Origin: Rhabdophis nuchalis
Lineage: Eukaryota > Chordata > Lepidosauria > Squamata > Natricidae
DNA length: 64,000 nt
Direction of reading: 5' to 3'
NCBI GenBank assembly: GCA_039707465.1
Contig: CM077648.1
Coordinates: 75,513,119 to 75,577,118 of the forward strand
The notes beneath the pieces were generated by a model. The model had not been told where the DNA came from. It saw nothing but the letters and a program-made list of their open reading frames with translations, and did not search any database. Positions 1 to 57,662 of the stretch are shown here, one piece after another; position 1 is the stretch's first letter, and each line of letters starts with the position of its first letter. Made by a program: the position numbers and the translations under genes.

Positions 1-120
1 ATGAGCTGATTCTTGGCTTGCTGTCTAGATGATCTCTGGTGATGAGTCGAAAGGCAGGAAAGGAAACAGTATGTCTGCTCCCTTAATTGGGGCCTAATAA
101 CAGGTTGTTGAGAAACAATT
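1..120 (+). repeat. PLE-associated unit tail, partial
   Basis: This stretch matches the reverse complement of about 26350-26510 and the tails of the ribozyme units further on. Shared blocks include a 'gagatgatctctggtgatgag'-like core and a 'cccttaattggggcc' block. It is in + orientation and runs into a TA-rich microsatellite. It appears to be the tail of a ribozyme-bearing unit or PLE 5' region cut by the window edge. Confidence 0.6.
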
Positions 121-159
121 ACATATATATATATAAATTTATTGATCAGCTCATAAAAC

Positions 160-190
<31 letters not shown>

Positions 191-663: not shown

Positions 664-690
664 TACGTTAAGTCTCCTCCCCTTAAAGGG
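664..690 (+). repeat. Inverted piece of unit tail at PLE junction
   Basis: This segment is the reverse complement of 390-414, with only one or two differences. It is a short + oriented tail fragment of the ribozyme unit joined directly to the truncated PLE reading frame that follows. The same order, unit tail then PLE, is seen on the minus strand near 26340-26500. Confidence 0.6.
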
Positions 691-2137
691 ATCCTTCATA
701 GAAACAATAAAAAAACAAAATCTACAGCCCAGCGATCTACTCGTGAGTTTTGATGTCATATCCCTCTTCACCCAAGTGCCTATAAAAGAAGCCTTGACAG
801 CCATCCAGAACAAATACAACCCCCCCAAGCACATCCTGGATCTGACCAACCACTGTCTAACCAACACATACTTCATTCACAATGACCAAAGATACAAACA
901 GATAGAAGGAGCACCCATGGGATCACCCCTCTCACCGGTCATCGCAAACTTATACATGGAACACTTTGAAACCAACGCCCTAGAAAAATCTGAACACAAA
1001 CACAAACTCTGGCTCAGATATGTAGATGACACTTTTGTAATTTGGCCACATGGGAAAGAAAAACCGGACAACTTCCTCACACACCTCAACTCCCTACACC
1101 CCAAAATACAATTCACCATGGAAATAGAAGCCAACAACCAACTCCCTTTTCTAGACGTCCTAATCTACAAAAAACCTAATGGCTCCCTAGGACACACCAT
1201 CTACCAGAAAAAAACACACACCAACCGCTACCTAAATGCACAATCCCATCACCACCCTGCACAGATAAACTCTGTAGCCAAAACCCTCATACACAGAACC
1301 AAACGCCTAGCTGACAAAGACCATCTGAAAACCAAAATACACTTCCTCACAAATACATTAATATCCAACGGATTCCGAAGAAAAACAATCACCAAACTAA
1401 TCCAACAAGAGACACCCCCCAGGAACCAAGACAAAGAACAGGAAAATGGCATTGCCCTCATCCCATACATTAAAGGTACCACAGACAAAATCAGCAAAAT
1501 TCTCCACAAGCACAACATCAAGACAGCCTTCAACACCGACCAAAAAATAACCAATATCCTAAGGAACGCAAAAGACAAGATCCAGCTAGAAAACCAAGGA
1601 GTCTACAAAATTCCATGTAAAAGCTGCCCTGCCACTTACATAGGACAAACCAACAGAAGGATTAGTGCACGTATTGCTGAACATAAAAATGCTTTAAAAA
1701 ATCATCTTAATACCTCATCTCTCTATCAACATTTCAAAACTACAGGACATGACATTGACTTTCAAGGAACTAAAATGATCTCCAAGGCGGAACAGCTCAA
1801 CAGGAGAATAATCAGAGAAGCCATTGAAATAGAGAAACAATCTAGCAGCATGAATAAACGTGATGATACCTCCCGCCTACCAGATATCTGGAAGCCAGCA
1901 TTGACCAGCAGACGAGCCCCACCCTCCAGCCAAGCCGTTGAAATTCAAAACAAGGAGAAACATACAAATGAGACCAATCAACATCAATCTACCAGTCATG
2001 ATGCAGCTGCACAGCCAATCAACCCACTCACAACAATAGTCAGCACTCCACCCCCACCCCCCCACCAAGATTTAAAGAGGGGCGATGCCTCCGCAGTCAC
2101 AGTCACAGACAGAAGCCTGCCTGATGATGACAAGTGA
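691..2137 (+). pseudogene. Penelope-like element RT/GIY-YIG, 5'-truncated
   Basis: One uninterrupted frame runs from the junction at 691 to a stop at 2137, about 480 codons. It encodes the catalytic half of a PLE reverse transcriptase (QVPIKEAL, GAPMGSPLSPV, the catalytic YVDDTF box) and then a GIY-YIG endonuclease domain (GVYKIPC...TYIGQTNRR). A low-complexity C-terminal tail follows. The N-terminal part of the RT is missing; compare the minus-strand copy at 25458-26335, which begins earlier. PLE proteins prime reverse transcription from nicked DNA. This copy lacks the start region and is probably inactive, although it has no internal stops. The 3' flank holds hammerhead-like repeats. Confidence 0.9.
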
Positions 2138-2154
2138 GATCTTGTCGAAACGTT
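2121..2154 (+). ncRNA. Hammerhead-like motif, PLE 3' end
   Basis: CUGAUGA (2121-2127), one extra U, then stem II GACAAG-UGAGAU-CUUGUC (6 bp), GAAA, and CGU plus U17. Stem III would be the self-complementary ACGU, as in minimal PLE hammerheads thought to work as dimers. Stem I starts with UGC/GCA. The extra U before stem II departs from the consensus, so activity is uncertain. Confidence 0.6.
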
Positions 2155-2293
2155 GCAATAACATTTCTATGCCTTATACACGGGAAAATCCCCGAAGCCA
2201 GCTATGCCAGCATACCTACACCCGTGAAAAATATATGCTGGCATTGCTGGCTTCGGGGATTTTCCCGTGTATATAGCATGGAGATGTTATTGC

Positions 2294-2327: not shown

Positions 2328-2362
2328 GCAGGCTTCTGTCAGAGGTTCTGACAGAAGCCTGC

Positions 2363-2396
2363 CTGATGATGACAAGTGAGATCTTGTCGAATCATT
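2363..2396 (+). ncRNA. Hammerhead-like motif, decayed copy
   Basis: CTGATGA at 2363-2369 and stem II GACAAG/CTTGTC are intact. The following GAAACGTT has become GAATCATT, which damages the stem III pairing. Probably inactive. Confidence 0.5.
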
Positions 2397-2479
2397 GCAA
2401 TAACATCTCCATGCTATATACACGGGAAAATCCCCGAAGCCAGCAATGCCAGCATACCTACACCCGTGAAAATCTACGA

Positions 2480-7628: not shown

Positions 7629-7959
7629 ATATAGACAAACATGAATAGTTGTTTCTTGATATTCAGATGCCAAAATTTAAGTACTATAAAATTGTCTTTT
7701 AATATAGTTGTTATTGCTGAAGTATGAGATTCTGGTCTGTTCCAATGATGGGTAACACTAGTGAATTTTAAATGAGTATAGCGTATTTTGATTCTTAGGA
7801 CATGATATATGCTAAACAATTAATCAAACCTATTATTTCTCAGGAATGTTAATGTTTTGATTCTTGCATTTCAGAATTGTTTTCGTGTCCCATCGTTTTT
7901 AATTAATGGGAGTTTTAAAACCCACCAGCTTGTTAAAGGACATTTCATTCTGTTTCTAG

Positions 7960-8114
7960 ATCTGTTAGCTGTGCCTAAGCATCCTTATGCTGCAATGGAG
8001 AACTGGGGATTAAATGTTTTTGTGGAACAAAGGATACTTCTGGATTCAAGCATTTCTTCCATATCATATTTACTGGATGTCACCATGGTTATTGTGCATG
8101 AGCTATGCCATCAG
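7960..8114 (+). CDS. LVRN: LVRN (laeverin/aminopeptidase Q) exon: AAMEN motif and HELCH zinc site
   Basis: The acceptor tttctag is at 7953-7959 and the donor CAG|gtagga at 8114/8115. The exon starts in phase 1: the first base of the Asp codon lies in the previous exon, which is outside the window or not recognised. It encodes the M1 aminopeptidase substrate loop VPKHPYAAMENWGL and the zinc helix VIVHELCHQ. M1 enzymes use HEXXH-X18-E to bind zinc, and GXMEN to grip the substrate amino terminus. Here the first motif position is Ala. Mammalian laeverin is known for a His at this position, so the departure from Gly is informative. LVRN is a type II membrane peptidase expressed in placental trophoblast in humans. 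ERAP or other M1 members are less likely. Confidence 0.85.
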
Positions 8115-9094
8115 GTAGGAGATAAATAATATCTTGACTATCTTATAAATGAAATAGATTTTAACTATTTCCCAAATTTTTTTAATGTGAACATATAGTG
8201 TTGAACTTAAGCTAAGCCCTTTTAGATCTTGTTTATTTCTTGATGTAAATTTAAGATGTATTTAACTCTTATTGAAATCAGTTGGAAATAAATCTTAACC
8301 TATCTTCAGTTGAATGAGAACTCATAAATAAGCTCGCACATAAACACTTTGTTTTGTACAAATTCTTTAAACCAGATACACAAAATAATAGGGGTATTTT
8401 CCCCTTTAAATAGAGTTAATAGGGTCATATTGTAAAGGATTTGTATTGCTATAGAGATACAAAATGATATTCCAATATTTCTGATTAGTTATTGCCTGCT
8501 CGCTTCCAAATAACTCTACAGAGAGCTTCCATAAACCTGAAATTCCTAACATTGATTTCAGATACTGGAGCTTGCCTTTGTCTCCCAAAATAACCTACCA
8601 ATTTCTCAGATTTGCATCAGGCAAATGATAAAACTGATCATAGCATTGATCACAATATTGAAGCGTATTTAGGTTACTAGACAATGTGGAACAATGGTTA
8701 CTGGTCGACTGTCTTATTGATATCCTCTTGCAAAGTGTCAAAATCCCTATTGTAATTGGAAATTTAGAGAACAGCTTTCTGAAATCTAGTGCTTTGTGAT
8801 GGTTAGTGACCAATGCTTTATACTGTTACTATGAATTATGCCTAAGATATTGCTCATGTTTAGATATCAGGTACATTAATTTGCTGATATTACAACTATT
8901 ACAAATAAAAAGAAGTAGTGCATATTTTTAGAGTTGTAAGACAACCAAAAGAAAATCCTTAAATAGATTTAATAATAGAATATTTCTCACCTCTGATTAA
9001 CTATAATTTTATGTATTACTAGTTTTTCAAAGATTATTAGCAATTTCTGAATAACAATTTGTCTTTAATTTTACACTTTACAGTTAAATAGTTT
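8115..9094 (+). other. LVRN intron, no recognised element
   Basis: AT-rich intron start. I see no repeat or exon here before the L1 fragment. Confidence 0.5.
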
Positions 9095-21164: not shown

Positions 21165-21462
21165 TGCCGTCTTTCTATAAATCTTGGGGGGGAAGTGGAG
21201 TGCTGGCTTTGTTGCTGTGAGTGGGTTGATTGGCTGTATAGTTGTATCAGGATTGGTAGATTGGTGCTGATTGGTGCAATCTGTGTGTTCGTTGTTCTTT
21301 GGTATTGTAACAGCCTGGGTGGTGGGTAGGGCTCGTCTGTTGGCCAGTGCTGGTTTCCAGATGTCTGGTAGGTGGGAGGTATCGTCACGTTTGTTCATGT
21401 TGTGTGGATGTTTCTCTATTTCGATGGCTTCCCTGATTATTCTCTTGTTGACCTGTTCATTT
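21165..21462 (-). pseudogene. PLE ORF 3' part, inverted relative to its own 3' end
   Basis: On the minus strand this encodes the post-endonuclease tail of a PLE: RIIREAIEIEK, MNKRDDTSHLPDIWKPAL and then a Thr/Gln/Pro-rich stretch. The element's 3' terminus (21470-21596) lies on the other strand, so the copy is 5'-inverted. Confidence 0.75.
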
Positions 21463-21469
21463 GAATATG

Positions 21470-21592
21470 AAGATGAATATTAAGATGGCGAGTGAGACCT
21501 CGCCGAAACGTTGGGAAGACAATCTCAATCTTACACAGGAAAAGACCCAAATACAACAAGACCAGCATACCTACACCCGTGAAAATCTACGA

Positions 21593-21625
<33 letters not shown>
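21470..21625 (+). repeat. PLE 3' terminus and (GT)n tail
   Basis: Ends in 'acacccgtgaaaatctacgaa', the same terminus as at 2478. A (GT)n run follows. It contains a hammerhead-like motif at 21479-21512. Confidence 0.75.
21479..21512 (+). ncRNA. Hammerhead-like motif, degraded core
   Basis: Stem II GGCGAG-UGAGAC-CUCGCC (21487-21504) and GAAACGUU (21505-21512) are perfect. The upstream core reads AUUAAGA where CUGAAGA is expected, so the ribozyme is dead in this copy. Confidence 0.5.
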
Positions 21626-21627
<2 letters not shown>

Positions 21628-21910
21628 GTTTTTGAGCTGATCAATAAATAGGTTTTTATTAAATAGGTTCTTGAATTATTATTAATCATCCCTTAAAGAA
21701 ATTTAACATATATATATATATATATATGAAGTGGATATATTGTTACAGCTTCCTGTTAGGCCTATTCAAGGGAGGAGACAAACTTGTCATCCTTCTCTGT
21801 CCTTCGACTCAACCTAGAGACCATCCAGACAGAGACCTATTAAATTGCTGCTGTCTTTTTAGATATGTGTTAAATTTCTTTAAGGGATGATTAATAATAA
21901 TTAATTAAGA

Positions 21911-21957
21911 GACCAGGATGGATCCATTTCGGGCTCCTTAGCCCTCGTCAGCTGGCC
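21911..21957 (-). ncRNA. Type I hammerhead ribozyme, copy 2
   Basis: Minus strand: GGCCAG, CUGACGA, stem II GGGCU-AAGG-AGCCC, GAA, stem III AUG-GAUC-CAU, C17 at 21917, CUGGUC. All invariant core bases are present. Against copy 1 the closing pair of stem II changes from A-U to G-C on both sides, a compensatory change. Confidence 0.9.
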
Positions 21958-21968
21958 ATACTTTCCCT

Positions 21969-22045
21969 ACAGGGATTTGAACTGGTGCTCTCCAGCATTC
22001 GAAGCAGGCTTCTCTATGCCTTGAGCTAACCAGTTTCCCTGATTA
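21969..22045 (-). promoter_or_regulatory. tRNA-like head, first array unit
   Basis: Minus strand B box AGTTCAAATCC (one mismatch to consensus) near 21984-21974, and an A-box-like TAGCTCAAGGCA near 22029-22018, about 34 nt apart. It lies directly upstream of the ribozyme at 21957-21911. The second unit carries the same sequence 347 bp further on. Confidence 0.65.
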
Positions 22046-22257
22046 CATCATCCTTTCTACAGGACTTTATTGATGAAGTGGATATATTGTTACAGCTTCC
22101 TGTTAGGCCTATTCAAGGGAGGAGACAAACTTGTCATCCTTCTCTGTCCTTCGACTCAACCTAGAGACCATCCAGACAGAGACCTATTAAATTGCTGCTG
22201 TCTTTTTAGATATGTGTTAAATTTCTTTAAGGGATGATTAATAATAATTAATTAAGA

Positions 22258-22304
22258 GACCAGGATGGATCCATTTCGGGCTCCTTAGCCCTCGTCAGCT
22301 GGCC
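22258..22304 (-). ncRNA. Type I hammerhead ribozyme, copy 3
   Basis: Identical by eye to copy 2, exactly 347 bp away. Core CUGACGA, GAA, C17 at 22264. Confidence 0.9.
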
Positions 22305-22487
22305 ATACTTTCCCTACAGGGATTTGAACTGGTGCTCTCCAGCATTCGAAGCAGGCTTCTCTATGCCTTGAGCTAACCAGTTTCCCTGATTACATCATCC
22401 TTTCTACAGGACTTTATTGATGAAGTGGATATATTGTTACAGCTTCCTGTTAGGCCTATTCATATATAAAATTATATATATATATAT

Positions 22488-22517
22488 GTTAGATTTTTAA
22501 GGGATGTTTTAATAATA
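22488..22517 (-). repeat. Fragment of ribozyme unit left of the nested L2
   Basis: 'gttagatttttaaggga' is unit tail sequence that continues after the L2 insertion, near 23787. Confidence 0.6.
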
Positions 22518-23786
22518 CCATCGACCATGGTATCCTATTGCGCCGACTGGGGGGGTTGGGGCTGGGAGGCATCGTTTTGCGGTGGTTCTCGTCCTACCTC
22601 TCTGGTCGGTCACAATATGTGTTGACAGGGGGGCAGAGGTCGGCCTTGAGGCCCCTCATATGTGGGGTTCCTCAGGGGTCGGTCCTCTCGCCCCTACTGT
22701 TCAACACATATATGAAGCCGCTGGGTGAGATCATCTGTGGTTTTGGGGTGGGATATCATCTGTACGCTGATACTCAGTTGTACATATCCACCCCAGACCA
22801 CCCCAACGATGCCGTCGAGGTTATGTCCCGGTGCTTGGAGGCCGTACGGATCTGGATGGGTAACAAACTCAAGCTAAACCTGTCCAAGACTGAGTGGCTG
22901 TGGCTTCCGGCGCCCCGGTTCAGACAGATTGTTCCAACACTGGCCATTGGGGGCGTAACACCGGCCCCCGTGGAGAGGGCGCGCAATTTGGGTGTCCTCC
23001 TGGATTCCCGGCTGTCTATGGAAGATCACGTGGCAGCCGTGGCCAGGGGGGCGTTCCATCAGGTACGCCTAATGCGCCAATTGCGCCCCTTACTGGACCG
23101 GGGTGCCTTACGCACAGTCACTCAAGCACTCGTCACCTCTCGACTCGACTACTGTAATGCTCTCTACATGGGGCTTCCCTTGAGGTGCACCCGAAAGCTG
23201 CAGCTAGTCCAGAACGCAGCCGCGCGGGTGATTACGGGAGTGCCTAGACACTCCCACATAACACCTATCCTGCGCGAGCTGCACTGGCTTCCTGTGGTCT
23301 TTCGGGTGCACTTCAAGGTCTTGACGACCATCTTTAAAGCGCTCCATGGCTCGGGGCCTAGTTATATGCAAGACCGCCTCCTGCCCCATACATCCCTCAG
23401 ACCGATATGCTCCCACAGAGAGGGCCTCCTCAGGGTGCCGTCAGCCGACTGGCGACACCCAGGGGAAGAGCCTTCTCTGTGGCGGGGCCAGCCCTTTGGA
23501 ACGACTTACCCCCTGAACTCCGCATCATCTCCGACCTCCGCCTCTTCCGCAAGTGTCTGAAGACACATTTATTCCATCTAGCCGGCCTAGCGTAACTTCC
23601 TTTGACTATTAGACAGTTTTAAATTTGGGAATTTTAATTCGGTTTTTAGCACAGGGTTTACTAGAATAAGTTTTTTAAATTTGTATATGTTTTGTATGTA
23701 TTTTAACATTCCTGTGCGCCGCCCTGGGTCCGCTTGGAGAAGGGCGGGATATAAATTTAATAAAATAAAAAATAAAAAATAAAAAA
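22518..23786 (+). mobile_element. L2 LINE, 5'-truncated, nested in a ribozyme unit
   Basis: Starts inside the RT at 'accatcgaccatgg' and ends with the L2 3' UTR ('gcgccgccctgggtccgc') and an AAATAAA-rich tail. Ribozyme-unit sequence lies on both sides (22488-22517 and 23787 onward). Confidence 0.85.
22538..23595 (+). pseudogene. L2 RT C-terminal half, catalytic Asp lost
   Basis: Encodes RT motifs from RRLGGLGLGG through [14 protein letters not shown] to the C-terminal block ending LKTHLFHLAGLA. At 22763-22774 the YADDT box reads YADT: one Asp codon has been deleted in frame, which removes a catalytic residue. A deletion of about 8 bp near 23445 then shifts the frame, so the C-terminus continues in another frame (23407-23595). 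Non-functional. Confidence 0.88.
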
Positions 23787-24037
23787 ATTAATTAAGAGAC
23801 CAGGATGGATCCATTTCGGGCTTCTTAGCCCTCTTCAGCTGGCCATACTTCTTCTACTGGGATTTGAACCGGCGCTTTCCAGCACTTGAGGCAAGCCTCT
23901 CTATGCCTTGAGCTAACCAGTTTCCCTGATTACATCATCCTTTTACAGGACTCTTATTGATGAGCGAATATTTTACAATATATATATATGTTAGATTTTT
24001 TTTAAGGGCTGAAAATAAAGGGACCCTGAACAGGAGC
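23787..24037 (-). mobile_element. Ribozyme unit, copy 4 (interrupted)
   Basis: Contains the hammerhead at 23798-23844 and a tRNA-like head (B-box region 'ggatttgaacc' at about 23860-23870, A-box region near 23910). Tail-like sequence at about 23985-24050 follows a TA tract. The unit was split by the L2 at 22518-23786. Confidence 0.7.
23798..23844 (-). ncRNA. Type I hammerhead ribozyme, copy 4
   Basis: Minus strand: GGCCAG, CUGAAGA, stem II GGGCU-AAGA-AGCCC, GAA, AUG-GAUC-CAU, C17 at 23804, CUGGUC. The core is complete. N7 is A, as in copy 1, while stem II has the G-C pair of copies 2 and 3. Confidence 0.9.
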
Positions 24038-24049
24038 TGTGATAATTAT

Positions 24050-24056
<7 letters not shown>

Positions 24057-24090
<34 letters not shown>

Positions 24091-26335: not shown

Positions 26336-26488
26336 TATATATATATATATATATGATTATTCCACAACACCCTGTTAGGGCCCCAATTAAGGGAGGAGAC
26401 ATACTATTTCCTTTTCTGCCTTTCGGCTCATCACCAGAGACCATCTAGACAGAAAGCCAAGAGTTCCGTTGTGTAAATTTTTTAGATA
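26336..26488 (-). repeat. PLE-linked unit tail
   Basis: Homologous to 1-120 and to the tails of the ribozyme units ('aattaagggaggagaca' block, 'agaccatctagacaga' block). It lies upstream of the PLE on the same strand, separated by a TA tract. Confidence 0.65.
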
Positions 26489-26570
26489 TGTGTGTTAGTT
26501 TTTATGAGCTGATCAATAAATCCTAGTCTCTCTGATTTATTTATTGATCAGCTCATAAAAACTAACACAC

Positions 26571-26571
<1 letters not shown>
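26489..26571. repeat. Inverted repeat (hairpin) at PLE 5' flank
   Basis: 26489-26521 and 26535-26571 are near-perfect inverted copies containing 'gagctgatcaataaat'. The same block occurs at about 141-160 and 21636-21650. A (TG)n run follows at 26572-26606. Confidence 0.8.
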
Positions 26572-26611
<40 letters not shown>

Positions 26612-45250: not shown

Positions 45251-46258
45251 GCGCCTGCGCGAGGAAGATGGCGGTCTAGCTCAGAGCTCCGCTGGGCCAT
45301 GGAGCTCGTTAGCCGCTTTTGGTAGTGCCCCAGCCCTCTAGTTACTATTTTGAGGGCTGGGATCGGAGAGGGACCCACCTGGACGCAGGGTGAGGTCTTC
45401 GCTGAGGCGGCTGGGTGGACGGCGGTGGCGGCGGTGGCGGCGACGACGGCGGCGGCGGTGTGAGCGTCGGGCCGGAAGTTGGCTTCCCCGGCGTCCCGGC
45501 GTCCTGGGATGGCGTTTCCCGACGCTCCCCTGGCGTCCTTGGGATGGTGTTTCCCTGGTGCTCCCTTGGTGTTCCCCTGACGTCCCTGGCATTCCCCAGC
45601 GTCCCTGGGATGGCGCTGGAAGTCGGCCATGCGCCTGGAGGTTGGAGAGCCCGGAGGGCCGGAAGAACAAACCCAGGTGCGGGGGCGGCGGTGAGAGAGC
45701 CGCCGTGAAGATCAGCGGCTTGAGGGCGGAGATGGCTGTGAGAGAGCCTGGAAAAAGCCCTGATGTCGGAGAGCCAGAGGGCCTGGAGGGCCTGGAGGGC
45801 CAGGAGGATGGGCTTAGGTGCGGAGGCGGCGGTGAGAGGGCCGCCATGAAGACCAGCGGAGACCAGTGGCACGTCAGAGGTGGAGATGGCTGTGAGAGAG
45901 CCAAAACGGAGGTTGGTGCCCTGGGGATGGTTGCTCAATTGAAAGCAACCACTAAGATCTTCCGACCATGGACATCTTTCTAAGATCTTTTTAACCCTCC
46001 CAAGGGAAAGAAGACTCTGAACGCTTTAGCTGAACTGAACCCCTACCGATGCACTTTAACCTACTAATGGAACTGATATTTTAACATCTATTTATCTTTT
46101 TTAACATCATCTATCATCATCTAAATGCGGCTAACGATGCACTTTTAAAACCCTCATGACCCATGCTTTCATGCTTTTATGCTTTTATGTATTTGAACTG
46201 CTCTACATTACATTCATTTATAATTATTTATGTATTTATTTAATTATCTATTTATGTC
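45251..46258 (+). promoter_or_regulatory. L2 5' UTR with YY1-like site
   Basis: GC-rich start containing AAGATGGCGG (45265-45274), the core of the YY1 site that sets the start of transcription in mammalian L1. It is followed by imperfect tandem blocks ('ggcgtccctgggatgg' type, 45490-45615) and 'ctggagggcctggag' repeats. Its CpG and G/C content contrasts sharply with the surrounding intron. Long frames on both strands are composition artefacts. Promoter activity is inferred. Confidence 0.6.
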
Positions 46259-49200
46259 ATGTATGATAGGCTAGACTTGTTACGACTGCGGGAATCCCCG
46301 CTCTCGCAGGTTTGGCCCTCCGTTCTAACGAGGGCCCACCTTGATGAAGGATTCATTAATCTGGAGAGGTGGAAAAAGCGTAGGCTTAGGGGTTTTTTAA
46401 TTTTTAAATTAATGACTATTTTAGGGGGTATCAGGGAGGAGGGAGGGTGTAGTCAGGTTGAGGCGGGTGAGGGAAGAGAGGGCCAGGCCAGCGGGCGACG
46501 GAGGGAAGCGGAAGGTTCCGTTAGGAGGGGAGAGATTCAAGTCGTTCCGACAGAGGGCATTTCCATCCAGAAGGTCGTGGGGAGAGGCAGGTCCGAGGGG
46601 AGACAAGTGTCATCCTCCCGGTTGGGGACACGAGGCCGTTGGCTACAGACGGTCAAGTGCCTCAACCCCTGCAGGCTAGGTGGCCAGGGTGTACAGAGTC
46701 AGGGCCTGCGGCTGATGTTCTGCAACGCCAGGTCCGTTGCCAACAAAGCCCCCCTCATTCACGACCTCGTGTCGGAGGGGGAGCCGGACCTGGTGGGAAT
46801 TGCAGAGACCTGGTTGGGCCACGAGGGTGGACTCCCCCTCGTTGAAATGTGCCCGCCAGGTTACCACGCTTTTCATCAGCCTCGGGCCCTGGGTAGGGGT
46901 GGTGGGGTAGCGGTCATTGTAAAGGAAGGTCTTGAGCCGAGAGAGACCATTGTGCCACAGACTACCGGTTGTGAGTCCCTTTGTGTGAAGTGGGGCCTAG
47001 GGAGGCAGTTGGGCTTGCTGGTTGTATACCTGGCTCCCCGCTATGTAGCAGCAGCCCTGCCCGAGCTCCTCGAGGTGATCGCTACGGTGGCAGTGGAGAC
47101 CCCCAGACTTTTAGTCATGGGGGACTTTAATCTGCCATCGTTGGGCGAATCATCCGAGGTAGCTCGGGAGTTCATGGCTTCCATGACGGCCATGGACCTG
47201 ACCCAACTAATTCAAGGCCCCACTCACGAGGGTGGACATACACCGGATCTCATCTTCGTCTCAGGCCAATGGACGAGTGATCTGGGTATAGGGGACATAG
47301 TCATTACACCCTTGTCATGGACAGACCACTCACTTCTCCGGCTCGACTTTCCGACCGCTGCTCCCCTCCGCGGGGAGGCGGGACCTGAGTTACCAATCTG
47401 GTTCCGCCCCAGGCACCTGATGGACCCGGATGGGTTCCAAACGGCGCTTGGGCCAGTTCCTGTACCCCTGACCCGCGCCCAGATGGAGGACCTCGTGGCC
47501 GCATGGAATAGTGCGACCACGGGAGCCTTGGATCGGGTCGCGCCCTTGCGGCCTCTCTTGCGGCGGCGGAACACCCTGGCTCCTTGGTTTACCGAGGAGC
47601 TGGGGGTGATGAAACGCCGCAAGAGATGCCTAGAGAGTAGATGGAGGTCTTCTCGTTCTGAATCTGACCGGACACAGGTAAGAGCCCATTTACGGACTTA
47701 CATTGTGGCGCTGAGAGTAGCCAAACGTCATCATTGCGCTACTCTCATAGCATCCGCAGAAAACCGCCCTGCCGCCCTGTTTAGGGTGACCCGCTCCCTC
47801 CTTCAACAGAGGGTGCGGGAAGCCCCGCTACAGGGTAGAGCAGAGGAATTTGTGACTTTTCTGCAGGAGAAAATCGCTCAGATACAGAACGAGTTACCCC
47901 CCATTCATGGCCCAGTGGGATGCCACGAGAGAGATCTTGTTTGGGAGGAATTTGACTCCGTCACTTCCGAGGATATGGATAGGTTACGTGGGCGACTGCG
48001 AGCCACCACATGTTTATTGGACCCGTGTTCCTCCTGGCTTGTACTGGCATCCTGGGAGGTGACACGAGGCTGGCTCCAGGAGGTGGCCAACGCTTCCTTG
48101 AGTGAGGGTGCCTTGCCTGCTCCCCTAAAAGAAGCGATGGTGAGGCCCCTCCTTAAGAAGCCCTCCTTGGATCCAGCTACTTTGAACAACTATCGTCCCG
48201 TCTCCAACCTTCCCTTTTTGGCGAAGGTTGTCGAGAGTGTGGTGGCACAACAGTTTCCCCGTCACCTGGAGGAAGTAGACTATCTAGATCCGCGCCAGTC
48301 CGGCTTCCGGCCCGGGCATAGCACCGAGACGGTATTGGTCGCGTTGGTTGATGATCTCTGGAGGGCCAGAGATGGGGGTTGTTCCTCCATCCTGGTCCTA
48401 TTAGACCTCTCGGCGGCTTTCGATACCATCGACCATGGTATCCTATTGCATCGGCTGGGGGGGTTGGGGGTGGGAGGCACCGTTTTACAGTGGTTCTCCT
48501 CCTACCTCTCTGGCCGATCGCAATTTGTGTTGACAGGGGGGCAGAGGTCGACCGCGAGACCCCTCACATGTGGGGTGCCTCAGGGGTCGGTCCTCTCGCC
48601 CCTCCTGTTCAACACATACATGAAGCCGCTGGGTGAGATCATCCGTGGTTTTGGGGTAGAATACCATCTGTACGCTGACGACATCCAGCTGTACATTTCT
48701 ACCCCAAACCACCCCAACGATGCCGTAGCGGTGATGTGCCAGTGCCTGGAAGCTGTACGGATCTGGATGGGAAGTAACGGACTTAGGCTCAACCCGACCA
48801 AGACCGAGTGGCTGTGGTTTCCGGCTGCCCGATTCAACCAGCTTACTCCATCGCTGGCCATAGGGGCGAACATCTTGCCACTGTGGATGGGGCGCGCAAC
48901 TTGGGTGTCCTCCTGGATGCCCGGCTGTCCATGGACGATCAAGTGACAGCCGTGGCCAGGAGGACGTTTTACCAGGTTCGCCTGGTTCGCCAATTGCGCC
49001 CCCTATTGGATCGAGACGCCCTTTGCACAGTCACTCATGCTCTCGTGACATCCCGACTGGACTATTGTAACTCTCTCTACATGGGGCTGCCCTTGAGGTG
49101 CACCCGGAGGCTTCAGCTAGTCCAGAATGCAGCCGCGCGAGCAATTATGGGGACCGCTAGGTCTACCCATGTAACACCGCTCTTACGCGAGCTGCACTGG

Positions 49201-55531: not shown

Positions 55532-55592
55532 CCAGTCAGTTTGAACTAGTGGTTAAGGCACCAGGCTAGAAAGCAAGCAACCATGAGTTCAT
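55532..55592 (+). mobile_element. tRNA-derived SINE, 5' part
   Basis: 'gtggttaaggcaccaggct' and 'accatgagttc' are typical of a squamate tRNA-derived SINE head. The rest of the SINE lies at 57663-57830, after the L2. Confidence 0.7.
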
Positions 55593-57662
55593 GTCGAACA
55601 CTAGTGAGAACCCATATTAGGGCTTACTTAGTGGCGATAAGGGTGGCCAAACGTGAGTATTGTGCCACCCTAATTGCATCCGCAGATAACCGCCCTGCCG
55701 CCCTGTTTGGGGTGACCCGCTCCCTCCTTCACCAGAGGCCGCGGGAAGCCCCTCTACAAGGGCGAGCAGAGGAATTTGGGATTTATCTGCAGGAGAAAAT
55801 CACTCGGATTCGGAATGAGCTACCCTCCATCGACAGTGATCCTGTGGGACTGTCCGAGACTAGTCTTGAGGTTCCTGCTTGGGAGGAGTTTGACTTTGTT
55901 ACCACCGAGGATATGGACAGGCTGTCAAGGAAACTTAGAGCGACCACATGTTTATTGGACCCGTGTCCCTCCTGGCTTGTACTGGCATCCTGGGAGACGA
56001 CACGAGGCTGGCTCCAGGGCATTGTCAACGCATCTTTGAGTGAGGGGTCCTTGCCTGCCGTCTTGAAAGAGGCGGTAGTGAGGCCCCTCCTCAAGAAGCC
56101 GTCCCTGGACCCAGCTTTACTAGAGAACTATCGTCCAGTCTCCAACCTTCACTTTCTGGTGAAGGTTGTTGAGAGTGTGGTAGCCCAACAGTTTCCACAA
56201 CACCTGGAGGAAGTTGATTATCTAGACCCGCGCCAGTCCGGCTTCCGACCCGGTCACAGTACCGAGACGGCATTGGTCGCGTTGGTTGATGATCTCTGGA
56301 GGGCGCGGGATAGAGGGTATTCCTCTATCCTAGTCCTATTAGACCTCTCGGCGGCTTTTGATACCATCGACCATGGTATCCTATTGCACCGACTGGGGGG
56401 GTTGGGGCTGGGAGGCACCGTTTTGCGGTGGTTCTCATCCTACCTCTCTGGTCGGTCGCAATATGTGTTGACGGGAGGGCAGAGGTCGACCTCGAGACCC
56501 CTCTTATGTGGGGTTCCTCAGGGGTCGGTCCTCTCGCCCCTCCTGTTTAACACATATATGAAGCCGCTGGGTGAGATCATCCGTGGTTTTGGGGTGGAGT
56601 ACCATCTGTACGCTGACGACACCCAGCTGTACATATCCACCCCAGACCACCCCAACGATGCCGCCGAAGTGCTGTCCCGGTGTTTGGAAGCCGTACGGAT
56701 CTGGATGGGTGGTAACAAACTCAAGCTCAACCCTGCCAAGACTGAGTGGCTGTGGTTTCCGGCACCCCGGTTCAGCCAGATTACTCCAACTCTGGCCATT
56801 GGGGGCGAAACACTGGCCCCCGTGGAGAGGGCGCGCAATTTGGGTGTCCTCCTGGATTCCCGGCTGTCCTTGGAGGACCATGTGACGGCCGTGGCCAGGG
56901 GGGCGTTTCATCAGGTACGCCTGATGCGCCAATTGCGCCCCTTACTGGACCGGGCTGCCCTTTGCACAGTCACTCAAGCTCTCGTGACGTCCCGTCTCGA
57001 CTACTGTAATGCTCTCTACATGGGGCTTCCCTTGAGGTGCACTCGAAAGCTACAGCTAGTCCAAAACGCAGCCGCGCGGGTAATTACGGGAGCCACCAGA
57101 AGCTCCCATATAACACCAATCCTGCGCGAGCTGCATTGGCTTCCTGTGGTCTTTCGGGTGCGCTTCAAGGTTCTGACGACCATCTTTAAAGCGCTCCATG
57201 GCTCGGGGCCTAGTTATATGCGAGACCGTCTCCTGCCCCATACATCCCTTAGACCGATCCGCTCCCACAGAGAGGGCCTTCTCAGGGTGCCGTCGGCCGG
57301 ACAATGCCGACTGGCGACACCCAGGGGAAGAGCCTTCTCTGTGGCGGGCCCTGCCCTTTGGAACGACCTACCCCCTGAACTCCGGACCATCACCGACCTC
57401 CGCCTCTTCCGCAAATGTTTAAAGACATATTTTTTCCATCAAGCCGGCCTAGCCTAACCTCCCATGGGGACTTTTAGAAAAGTTTTAAATTGGGTTTTTA
57501 ATAATTGGTTTTTAGCACAGGATTGGGGATTATTTAATATATATTTTAAATTATTTGTCTATCTTCTATTGTGTATGTTTTTTAAATTTCCTGTGCGCCG
57601 CCCTGGGTCCTCTGTGGAGAAGGGCGGGATATAAATGTAATAAAATGAAAAATGAAATGAAA
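55593..57662 (+). mobile_element. L2 LINE, 5'-truncated, nested in a SINE
   Basis: Starts within the endonuclease-RT linker and ends in the L2 3' UTR ('gcgccgccctgggtcct') and a GAAAT tail. SINE halves flank it. Confidence 0.88.
55595..57457 (+). CDS. L2 ORF2 C-terminal two-thirds, uninterrupted
   Basis: About 620 codons stay open to a stop at 57457. Contents: the linker (LIASADNRPAALFGV), RT ([46 protein letters not shown], catalytic YADDTQLYI at 56609 onward) and the C-terminal region (RSHREGLLRVPSAG, WNDLPPELR, KTYFFHQAGLA). The endonuclease is absent because of 5' truncation, and the ATG at 55583 lies in SINE or flanking sequence. It cannot transpose itself but is a good reference for the L2 frame in the window. 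Confidence 0.88.
   Translation, partial: RTLVRTHIRAYLVAIRVAKREYCATLIASADNRPAALFGVTRSLLHQRPREAPLQGRAEEFGIYLQEKITRIRNELPSIDSDPVGLSETSLEVPAWEEFDFVTTEDMDRLSRKLRATTCLLDPCPSWLVLASWETTRGWLQGIVNASLSEGSLPAVLKEAVVRPLLKKPSLDPALLENYRPVSNLHFLVKVVESVVAQQFPQHLEEVDYLDPRQSGFRPGHSTETALVALVDDLWRARDRGYSSILVLLDLSAAFDTIDHGILLHRLGGLGLGGTVLRWFSSYLSGRSQYVLTGGQRSTSRPLLCGVPQGSVLSPLLFNTYMKPLGEIIRGFGVEYHLYADDTQLYISTPDHPNDAAEVLSRCLEAVRIWMGGNKLKLNPAKTEWLWFPAPRFSQITPTLAIGGETLAPVERARNLGVLLDSRLSLEDHVTAVARGAFHQVRLMRQLRPLLDRAALCTVTQALVTSRLDYCNALYMGLPLRCTRKLQLVQNAAARVITGATRSSHITPILRELHWLPVVFRVRFKVLTTIFKALHGSGPSYMRDRLLPHTSLRPIRSHREGLLRVPSAGQCRLATPRGRAFSVAGPALWNDLPPELRTITDLRLFRKCLKTYFFHQAGLA

Follow-up and report, generated by a model that had tools for sequence, protein, structure and literature searches.

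A probable non-coding hammerhead retrozyme with two preferred insertion ends and its likely mobilization by Penelope-like machinery

The array and its surroundings

The window analysed here, a stretch of 64,000 nt (G000:C6:75513119-75577118), carries a head-to-tail array of a 347-bp repeat, designated family 1 (Table 1). With unit position 1 set at the first base past the predicted hammerhead cut on the minus strand, the array reads along that strand as a 5'-partial unit (149-347), a full unit (1-347) and a 3'-partial unit (1-191). It ends at the putative reverse-transcription (RT) start S2 on its 21726 side and in a 5' truncation at 22462. The tandem period of 347 bp had been recognized in an earlier, sequence-only reading and stands, while the bounds given there (21728-22461) are replaced by those in Table 1. 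Each unit contains 113 A and 88 T, its GC content of 42% being below the 45% limit of retrozymes, and none of the listed stop-free stretches of at least 75 aa lies inside the array, indicating that the unit is non-coding. Since neither RT nor GIY-YIG coding is found in it, the unit itself is no Penelope-like element (PLE). A collection scan returned no matches in viral contigs.

The 3' end of the array faces that of an older family-1 arm across one shared (TA)n. On the other side lies the older copy B, the body of which seems, from its sequence, to continue at 22479-22517, so that a LINE would split this copy in two. Long frames of CR1/L2 type, classed by eye, occur at 22518-23782, 46244-48943 and 55550-57454. 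Members of two sister families are also present (copy C for family 2, copies D and E for family 3), as are PLE sequences. Finally, an open frame on the plus strand at 7824-8126 contains AAMENWG and HELCHQ, which we take to be motifs from an exon encoding an M1 aminopeptidase, so that the window may be crossed by a host gene at this point.

Table 1. Repeat-related features of the window (window positions; a dot marks features without a single strand)
Feature	Position	Strand	Remarks
Family-3 arms E	9-170	+	9-135 ends at S2, 136-170 ends at S1
Copy C, family 2 (337-nt type)	351-664	minus	hammerhead at 572; ends at S2
PLE reading frame, C-terminal part	683-2134	+	RT: Pfam RVT_1, 4e-13
PLE tail	2101-2222	+	long end
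PLE tail	2234-2340	minus	short end
PLE tail	2350-2464	+	long end
PLE tail	21461-21596	+	hammerhead-like core and ORF start, long end, then (TG)n; beside the array
Older family-1 arm	21674-21716	+	unit 15-57, 95%; S1 end against the (TA)n at 21708-21727
Target microsatellite (TA)n	21708-21727	.	RT-start side of the family-1 array
Family-1 retrozyme array	21726-22462	minus	exact 347-bp period, 737 bp, 2.12 units, 100% identical
Type I hammerhead 2	21957-21911	minus	predicted cut 21917/21916; sequence and covariation over 28 copies
B-box-like GTTCAAATCC	21973-21982; second copy 22320-22329	minus	unit position 282
A-box-like TAGCTCAAGGC	22018-22028; second copy 22365-22375	minus	motif search
Type I hammerhead 1	22304-22258	minus	predicted cut 22264/22263; sequence and covariation over 28 copies
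5'-truncated CR1/L2-type LINE	22518-23782	+	inside copy B; class named by eye
Older copy B	23783-23963	minus	90%; hammerhead CUGAAGA..GAAA at 23838
Family-2 head-to-head pair	23981-24060	.	minus arm with S1 end, plus arm with S2 end
Family-3 head-to-head pair	26340-26574	.	26340-26521 minus, S2; 26523-26574 plus, S1

The hammerhead and the promoter-like boxes

Two minus-strand type I hammerheads place the predicted cuts exactly where the sequence-only reading had put them (Table 1). The family-1 motif combines the core CUGACGA..GAAA with stem I (GGCCAG/CUGGUC), stem II (GGGCU/AGCCC) and stem III (AUG/CAU), the latter carrying a GAUC loop. A full descriptor comprising the core and the three stems matched the window four times (hammerheads 1 and 2, copy B at 23838 and copy C at 572, the last with a compensatory A-U in stem II), as compared with a single match across 60 dinucleotide-shuffled windows.

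For covariation, 28 rows were used out of the 56 distinct hammerheads retrieved by sequence resemblance from the window and the fetched loci described below. A standard pair is formed in 97.4% of the 392 pair cells, a percentage somewhat favoured by the selection of rows, which leaned on likeness to the typed motif; when partners were slid by 1-3 columns, 25.5-45.7% of the cells did so. Changes on both sides of a pair affect 42 cells (shuffled mean 15.0) and 6 of the 14 pairs (shuffled mean 4.1), spread over all three helices. Further standard pair types show no increase over the shuffles (9 versus 12.2). Judged from this alignment, the type I hammerhead with its conserved core and three stems is real and maintained by compensatory change.

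The hammerhead had been called complete, which holds for the core and the three stems. It does not hold for strength as a single copy, as helix III consists of three pairs, closed by the palindromic GAUC loop (AUGGAUCCAU, or AUAGAUCUAU in family 3). Two copies are predicted by folding to pair through a 10-nt palindromic helix III, which recalls the axolotl hammerheads, reported in part of PMC7229834 to cleave better as dimers. Rfam models gave nothing at the gathering threshold for the family-1 unit (best HH9, 26.4 bits against 52) or for its relatives (HH9, 33.7 against 52; type I, 29.9 against 34). Folding of the linear monomer yielded stems I and II with probabilities of 0.86-0.95, and the monomer fold is only modestly better than that of shuffles (z -1.67). 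Moreover, the hammerhead is absent from the predicted lowest-energy circular fold of the 347-nt unit, and in isolation a misfold is predicted to be more stable (-18.7 versus -14.5 kcal/mol). The misfold, the circular fold and the modest z are counted against a retrozyme cycle.

The A-box-like and B-box-like motifs of family 1 lie 46 nt apart, start to start. Family 2 possesses both boxes and family 3 a clear B box, its A box being recognized by eye. Neither ARAGORN nor the Rfam models detected a tRNA; the tRNA-like promoter proposed earlier comprises these two boxes only. A Pol III promoter is possible on the basis of these motifs. Sm-alpha elements of Schistosoma have a Pol III promoter. Sense-strand TTTT is absent from all three family units; this was discarded as evidence for Pol III, as one third of the mononucleotide shuffles of family 1 also lack TTTT and the absence is not significant for that family.

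Insertion ends, head-to-head pairs and sister families

A search of the genome (1.92 Gb) with the family-1 unit yielded at least 208 matches from the best 40 of 392 candidates scored, and those listed lie on at least 10 contigs. Thirty-seven further loci were fetched with their flanks; together with the window they contain 94 full units, 47 of which are identical to the unit of the window. Arms with at least one piece of 98% identity or more were considered young, older arms being left out, which resulted in 63 arms at 38 places. Forty-seven of them exceed one unit in length, the longest reaching 15.8 units (L034). Tandem copies with the 347-bp period are therefore found at many places, and the possibility that the genome holds single units only fails. 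Judged from sequence, the insertion in the window is recent and the element recently active. An assembly error or collapsed repeat, which might be suspected from the identity of the units in assembled sequence, is hardly credible given the 37 other places, which vary in length and 5' end and carry private variants of their own.

Most 3' ends of the young arms (54/63) fall at two sites: 31 at S1 (after ..UUUAACA, unit position ~49) and 23 at S2 (after ..CCACUUCA, position 191), these classes tolerating a few nucleotides of AT microhomology, with 9 elsewhere. Beside the S1 and S2 ends lies AT-rich sequence of the (TA)n or (CA)n kind; in 49 of the 54 cases a dinucleotide run, usually (TA)n, follows within 3 nt, against a baseline of 1.4%. 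By contrast, 5' ends are scattered over the unit. Fixed 3' ends combined with variable 5' ends are the signature of RT with fixed internal starting points and variable stopping points. Six arms seemed to have their 5' ends at the hammerhead cut (unit position 1); this proved to be an artefact of the query ends, as exact extension on the circular unit moved them to 335-345.

At L031, L046 and L052, the flanks show retrozyme arms inside a (TA)n that also terminates an older PLE tail, suggesting that the insertions nest in one another's microsatellites. Behind the S1-side arm of L080 (24-72) stand two additional short direct repeats of unit 10-40, which look as if they arose by slippage or a jump at the start.

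At many loci two family-1 arms lie head to head, with touching or close 5' ends and both 3' ends pointing outward. Allowing up to 250 nt between the 5' ends, we found 21 such pairings, in 14 of which both ends could be classified and in 7 of which one end could not. All 14 classified pairs combine S1 with S2 (~4e-5 under random pairing). The gap is at most 33 nt, or the arms overlap, in 13 of these; the remaining pair (L042) is separated by 222 nt of AT-rich sequence. Overlaps of 1-10 nt, seen in 11 of the 21 pairings, are as would be expected from microhomology joining. In L1 twin priming, two cDNAs from both sides of a break are joined 5' to 5'; the retrozyme pairs differ from it in that both starts are fixed and the cDNAs can be several unit lengths long.

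Family 2 (337 nt) and family 3 (343-348 nt) use the same two ends as family 1, at matching places. A genome search with family 3 gave 2023 first-look candidates, the best 39 of which were scored; the listed matches cluster into at least 39 loci, including 16 with matches on both strands. Pairs were read at 13 of these 16, the three longest being left out, and amounted to 14 pairings, of which five were unclassifiable and nine classified. As judged by eye, eight of the nine are mixed, L081 being S1/S1. L080 is among the unclassified on account of the extra short repeats on its S1 arm; if it were counted as mixed, the tally would be 9/10. Long family-3 arrays with units on both strands lie at G000 C4:55088919-55095977 (L038, partly read), C13:4643728-4648238 and C3:26076454-26081087.

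Might the family-1 element be an ordinary satellite that owes its spread to segmental duplication and unequal crossing-over? The tandem period and a satellite-like, four-unit higher-order pattern at L034 would agree with this. The dispersed places, the same two 3' ends beside microsatellites, the variable 5' ends and the mixed head-to-head pairs make it very improbable. Equally remote, in our view, is a tRNA-type SINE that depends on a LINE (CR1/L2) for its movement and carries the hammerhead as a passenger: the A and B boxes stand at tRNA-like spacing (by eye for the family-3 A box) and LINE frames are present in the window (by eye), whereas the two internal starts, the cDNA of several units and its priming at either side are features of the PLE kind, and the covariation of the hammerhead also speaks against this explanation.

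The template, the Penelope-like machinery and known systems

The full units hold information on the template. Two or more full units are present at 21 loci, and at 5 of these a private variant occurs in every full unit, as compared with 0.15 expected; in 5000 shuffles, restricted to the 94 full units, the maximum was 4. The locus-fixed variant occurs in both arms at L053 and L061. Variants common to at least two units of a locus number 11 (shuffled mean 2.5), which is not above the shuffled maximum of 12. The 347/1 junction of the cut is crossed by 54 of the 63 arms (149 crossings) and only one of the 63 has its 5' end within 3 nt of the cut, suggesting that cut ends are not the usual ends of the template. 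A circular template would fit the junction and 5'-end data best.

A single monomeric circle is inadequate for arrays of mixed units (L034, L049, L054 and L032), some of which need multi-unit templates; they could stem from circles of several units, from a linear multimer or from recombination at a later stage. The sixteen-unit array at L034 (1444-6942) shows a variant period of four units (C333T; T7G; G80C+T88A+T90C; none), the phase of which is lost near the 5' end. Either a tetramer circle or unequal crossing-over may account for it.

Besides the RVT_1 domain, the PLE frame of the window has a GIY-YIG match (0.0078) that is weak and below the Pfam cut-off. A genome search for PLEs returned 9591 first-look candidates, and among the best 88, which were scored, some have open frames of more than 800 aa. 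Many PLE tails from the window and the fetched loci have their ends near microsatellites, at either of two points separated by some 30 nt (..GCCAGCATA or ..GAAAATCTACGAA), and AAAATCTA is common, by eye, to the S1 region of family 2 and the long PLE end. Tails also form head-to-head pairs, such as the one at 2234-2340 and 2350-2464. Nine pairs with gaps of up to 100 nt were read by eye, eight of them classified; seven of the eight use one of each end, and at L039 the short end is used twice.

The Poseidon PLE PAc of Anolis (PMC11167929) is the closest experimental counterpart in this respect. Its RT starts at two adjacent internal sites, which define the genomic tail, and in vitro it cuts and extends both strands of AT-rich DNA; this tail signature is matched by like-formed PLE tails in the window. 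The retrozyme insertions display the same PLE-type hallmarks, i.e. internal RT start, priming on both strands and an AT-rich or microsatellite target. They differ in that the retrozyme codes for nothing and its sites are 142 nt apart (~30 in the PLE). Their regularity of one site per arm is absent from the main text of PMC11167929, which found no difference in start sites between the strands. Given the two-site architecture shared by retrozymes and PLE tails, PLE machinery is the likely mover of the family-1 retrozyme, as far as the insertion sequences tell. This is consistent with part of the Discussion of PMC7229834, where PLEs are a strong candidate mover of retrozymes, not a demonstrated one.

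The Anolis study also speaks for another template, namely a linear multimer that is transcribed off an older array and stays uncleaved; PLE machinery would start on it at S1 and S2, and the hammerhead would be irrelevant to mobility. In vitro, the unprocessed RNA was the dominant substrate and hammerhead mutants were without effect on insertion (PMC11167929); along with the likeness of the strands, these results are counted against a circle-based reading, and the mixed arrays named above likewise fit a multi-unit template. Conversely, private variants fill every full unit at five loci, in both arms at two, there is no clear pile-up of 5' ends at the candidate Pol III transcript start (5/63 in 214-232 versus 3.4 expected, little excess), and the pairing of the hammerhead is preserved by compensatory change. 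On balance, we regard the uncleaved multimer as unlikely.

Instead, family 1 is probably a non-autonomous, non-coding metazoan (non-LTR) retrozyme, which PLE machinery would copy for the most part from small circular RNAs. The retrozyme reading suggested from the sequence alone thus gains support from the hammerhead covariation, dispersed arrays, fixed 3' starts, variable 5' ends and template-specific variants, and family 1 has the short tandem organization (170-400 bp), lack of coding capacity, GC content under 45% and dispersal of the metazoan non-LTR class. The two-site, two-arm structure and the connection to PLEs had gone unnoticed in that earlier reading. In the cycle that we propose, transcription from the tRNA-like A and B boxes would run through tandem units and the type I hammerheads would cut each unit, probably as dimers via the palindromic helix III, releasing a 347-nt RNA that would then be ligated into circles. 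A PLE-type RT/endonuclease would break a (TA)n or (CA)n microsatellite and cDNA would be primed from both DNA ends, one starting at S1 (after ~49) and the other at S2 (191). Each cDNA would travel round the circle, from a fraction of a turn up to many turns, and stop at no fixed place; the 5' ends of the two would then be joined, in many cases through microhomology. We incline slightly towards the further view that a single PLE ribonucleoprotein, perhaps a dimer on one circle, provides the two fixed starts, one per side of the break, that a complete insertion consists of two joined rolling-circle cDNAs, and that the same rule builds PLE insertions. Exceptions to the two-site rule are the 9 of 63 family-1 arms ending elsewhere and the same-site pairs at L081 and L039.

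Family 1 resembles the non-LTR retrozymes of axolotl (Rtz331/353), corals and mussels, which, according to the portions of PMC7229834 drawn on here, also have a type I hammerhead with a very short helix III and a palindromic loop, form dispersed arrays of non-coding tandem repeats of 330-350 bp with low GC, and coexist with hammerhead-bearing PLEs. It differs from the elements of those portions by the A and B boxes in its unit and by its host, thought to be an amniote, while two fixed RT starts with mixed pairing go unreported in the search and opening passages of that paper. The metazoan class is marked by linear and circular monomer RNA and by self-cleavage in vitro, as a dimer in vertebrates; for family 1, circles and cleavage are predicted from the DNA. 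As far as part of PMC8490949 describes them, the SINE-like Sm-alpha elements of Schistosoma are also repeats of ~335 bp with a type I hammerhead, for which no two-site insertion pattern is given. Plant LTR retrozymes share the hammerhead and the circular RNA intermediate; in the parts of PMC7761336 and PMC7229834 used, they differ by a type III hammerhead, LTRs, PBS and PPT, a length of ~700 nt and Gypsy machinery. Intronic hammerheads are known in reptiles, birds and mammals (from part of PMC6155905). A literature survey covering titles and abstract openings, with most subscription journals outside its scope, returned no report of reptile retrozymes or of the two-site pattern. Family 1 appears to be a known kind of element, a metazoan retrozyme, probably in a host group for which we found no report, and the two-site, two-arm rule common to retrozymes and PLEs appears to be new.

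These dozens of young insertions record the starts, direction, template variants and target of the return of an animal retrozyme to DNA, and this record speaks for PLE-type priming at two sites. As a natural and recent system, probably in an amniote, they lend themselves to tests of how RNA circles made by a ribozyme are turned into DNA, and they suggest one site per DNA end as a rule for PLE insertion itself. If true, this would represent a general bidirectional, target-primed, rolling-circle mode of DNA insertion, explaining both retrozyme arrays and the tandem or inverted pLTRs of PLEs.

Among individual insertions, the two arms of L037 differ from each other by a homopolymer deletion and an insertion. 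In the window, three PLE tails alternate in orientation at 2101-2464, with 3'-3' and 5'-5' junctions, forming a compact nested bidirectional insertion.
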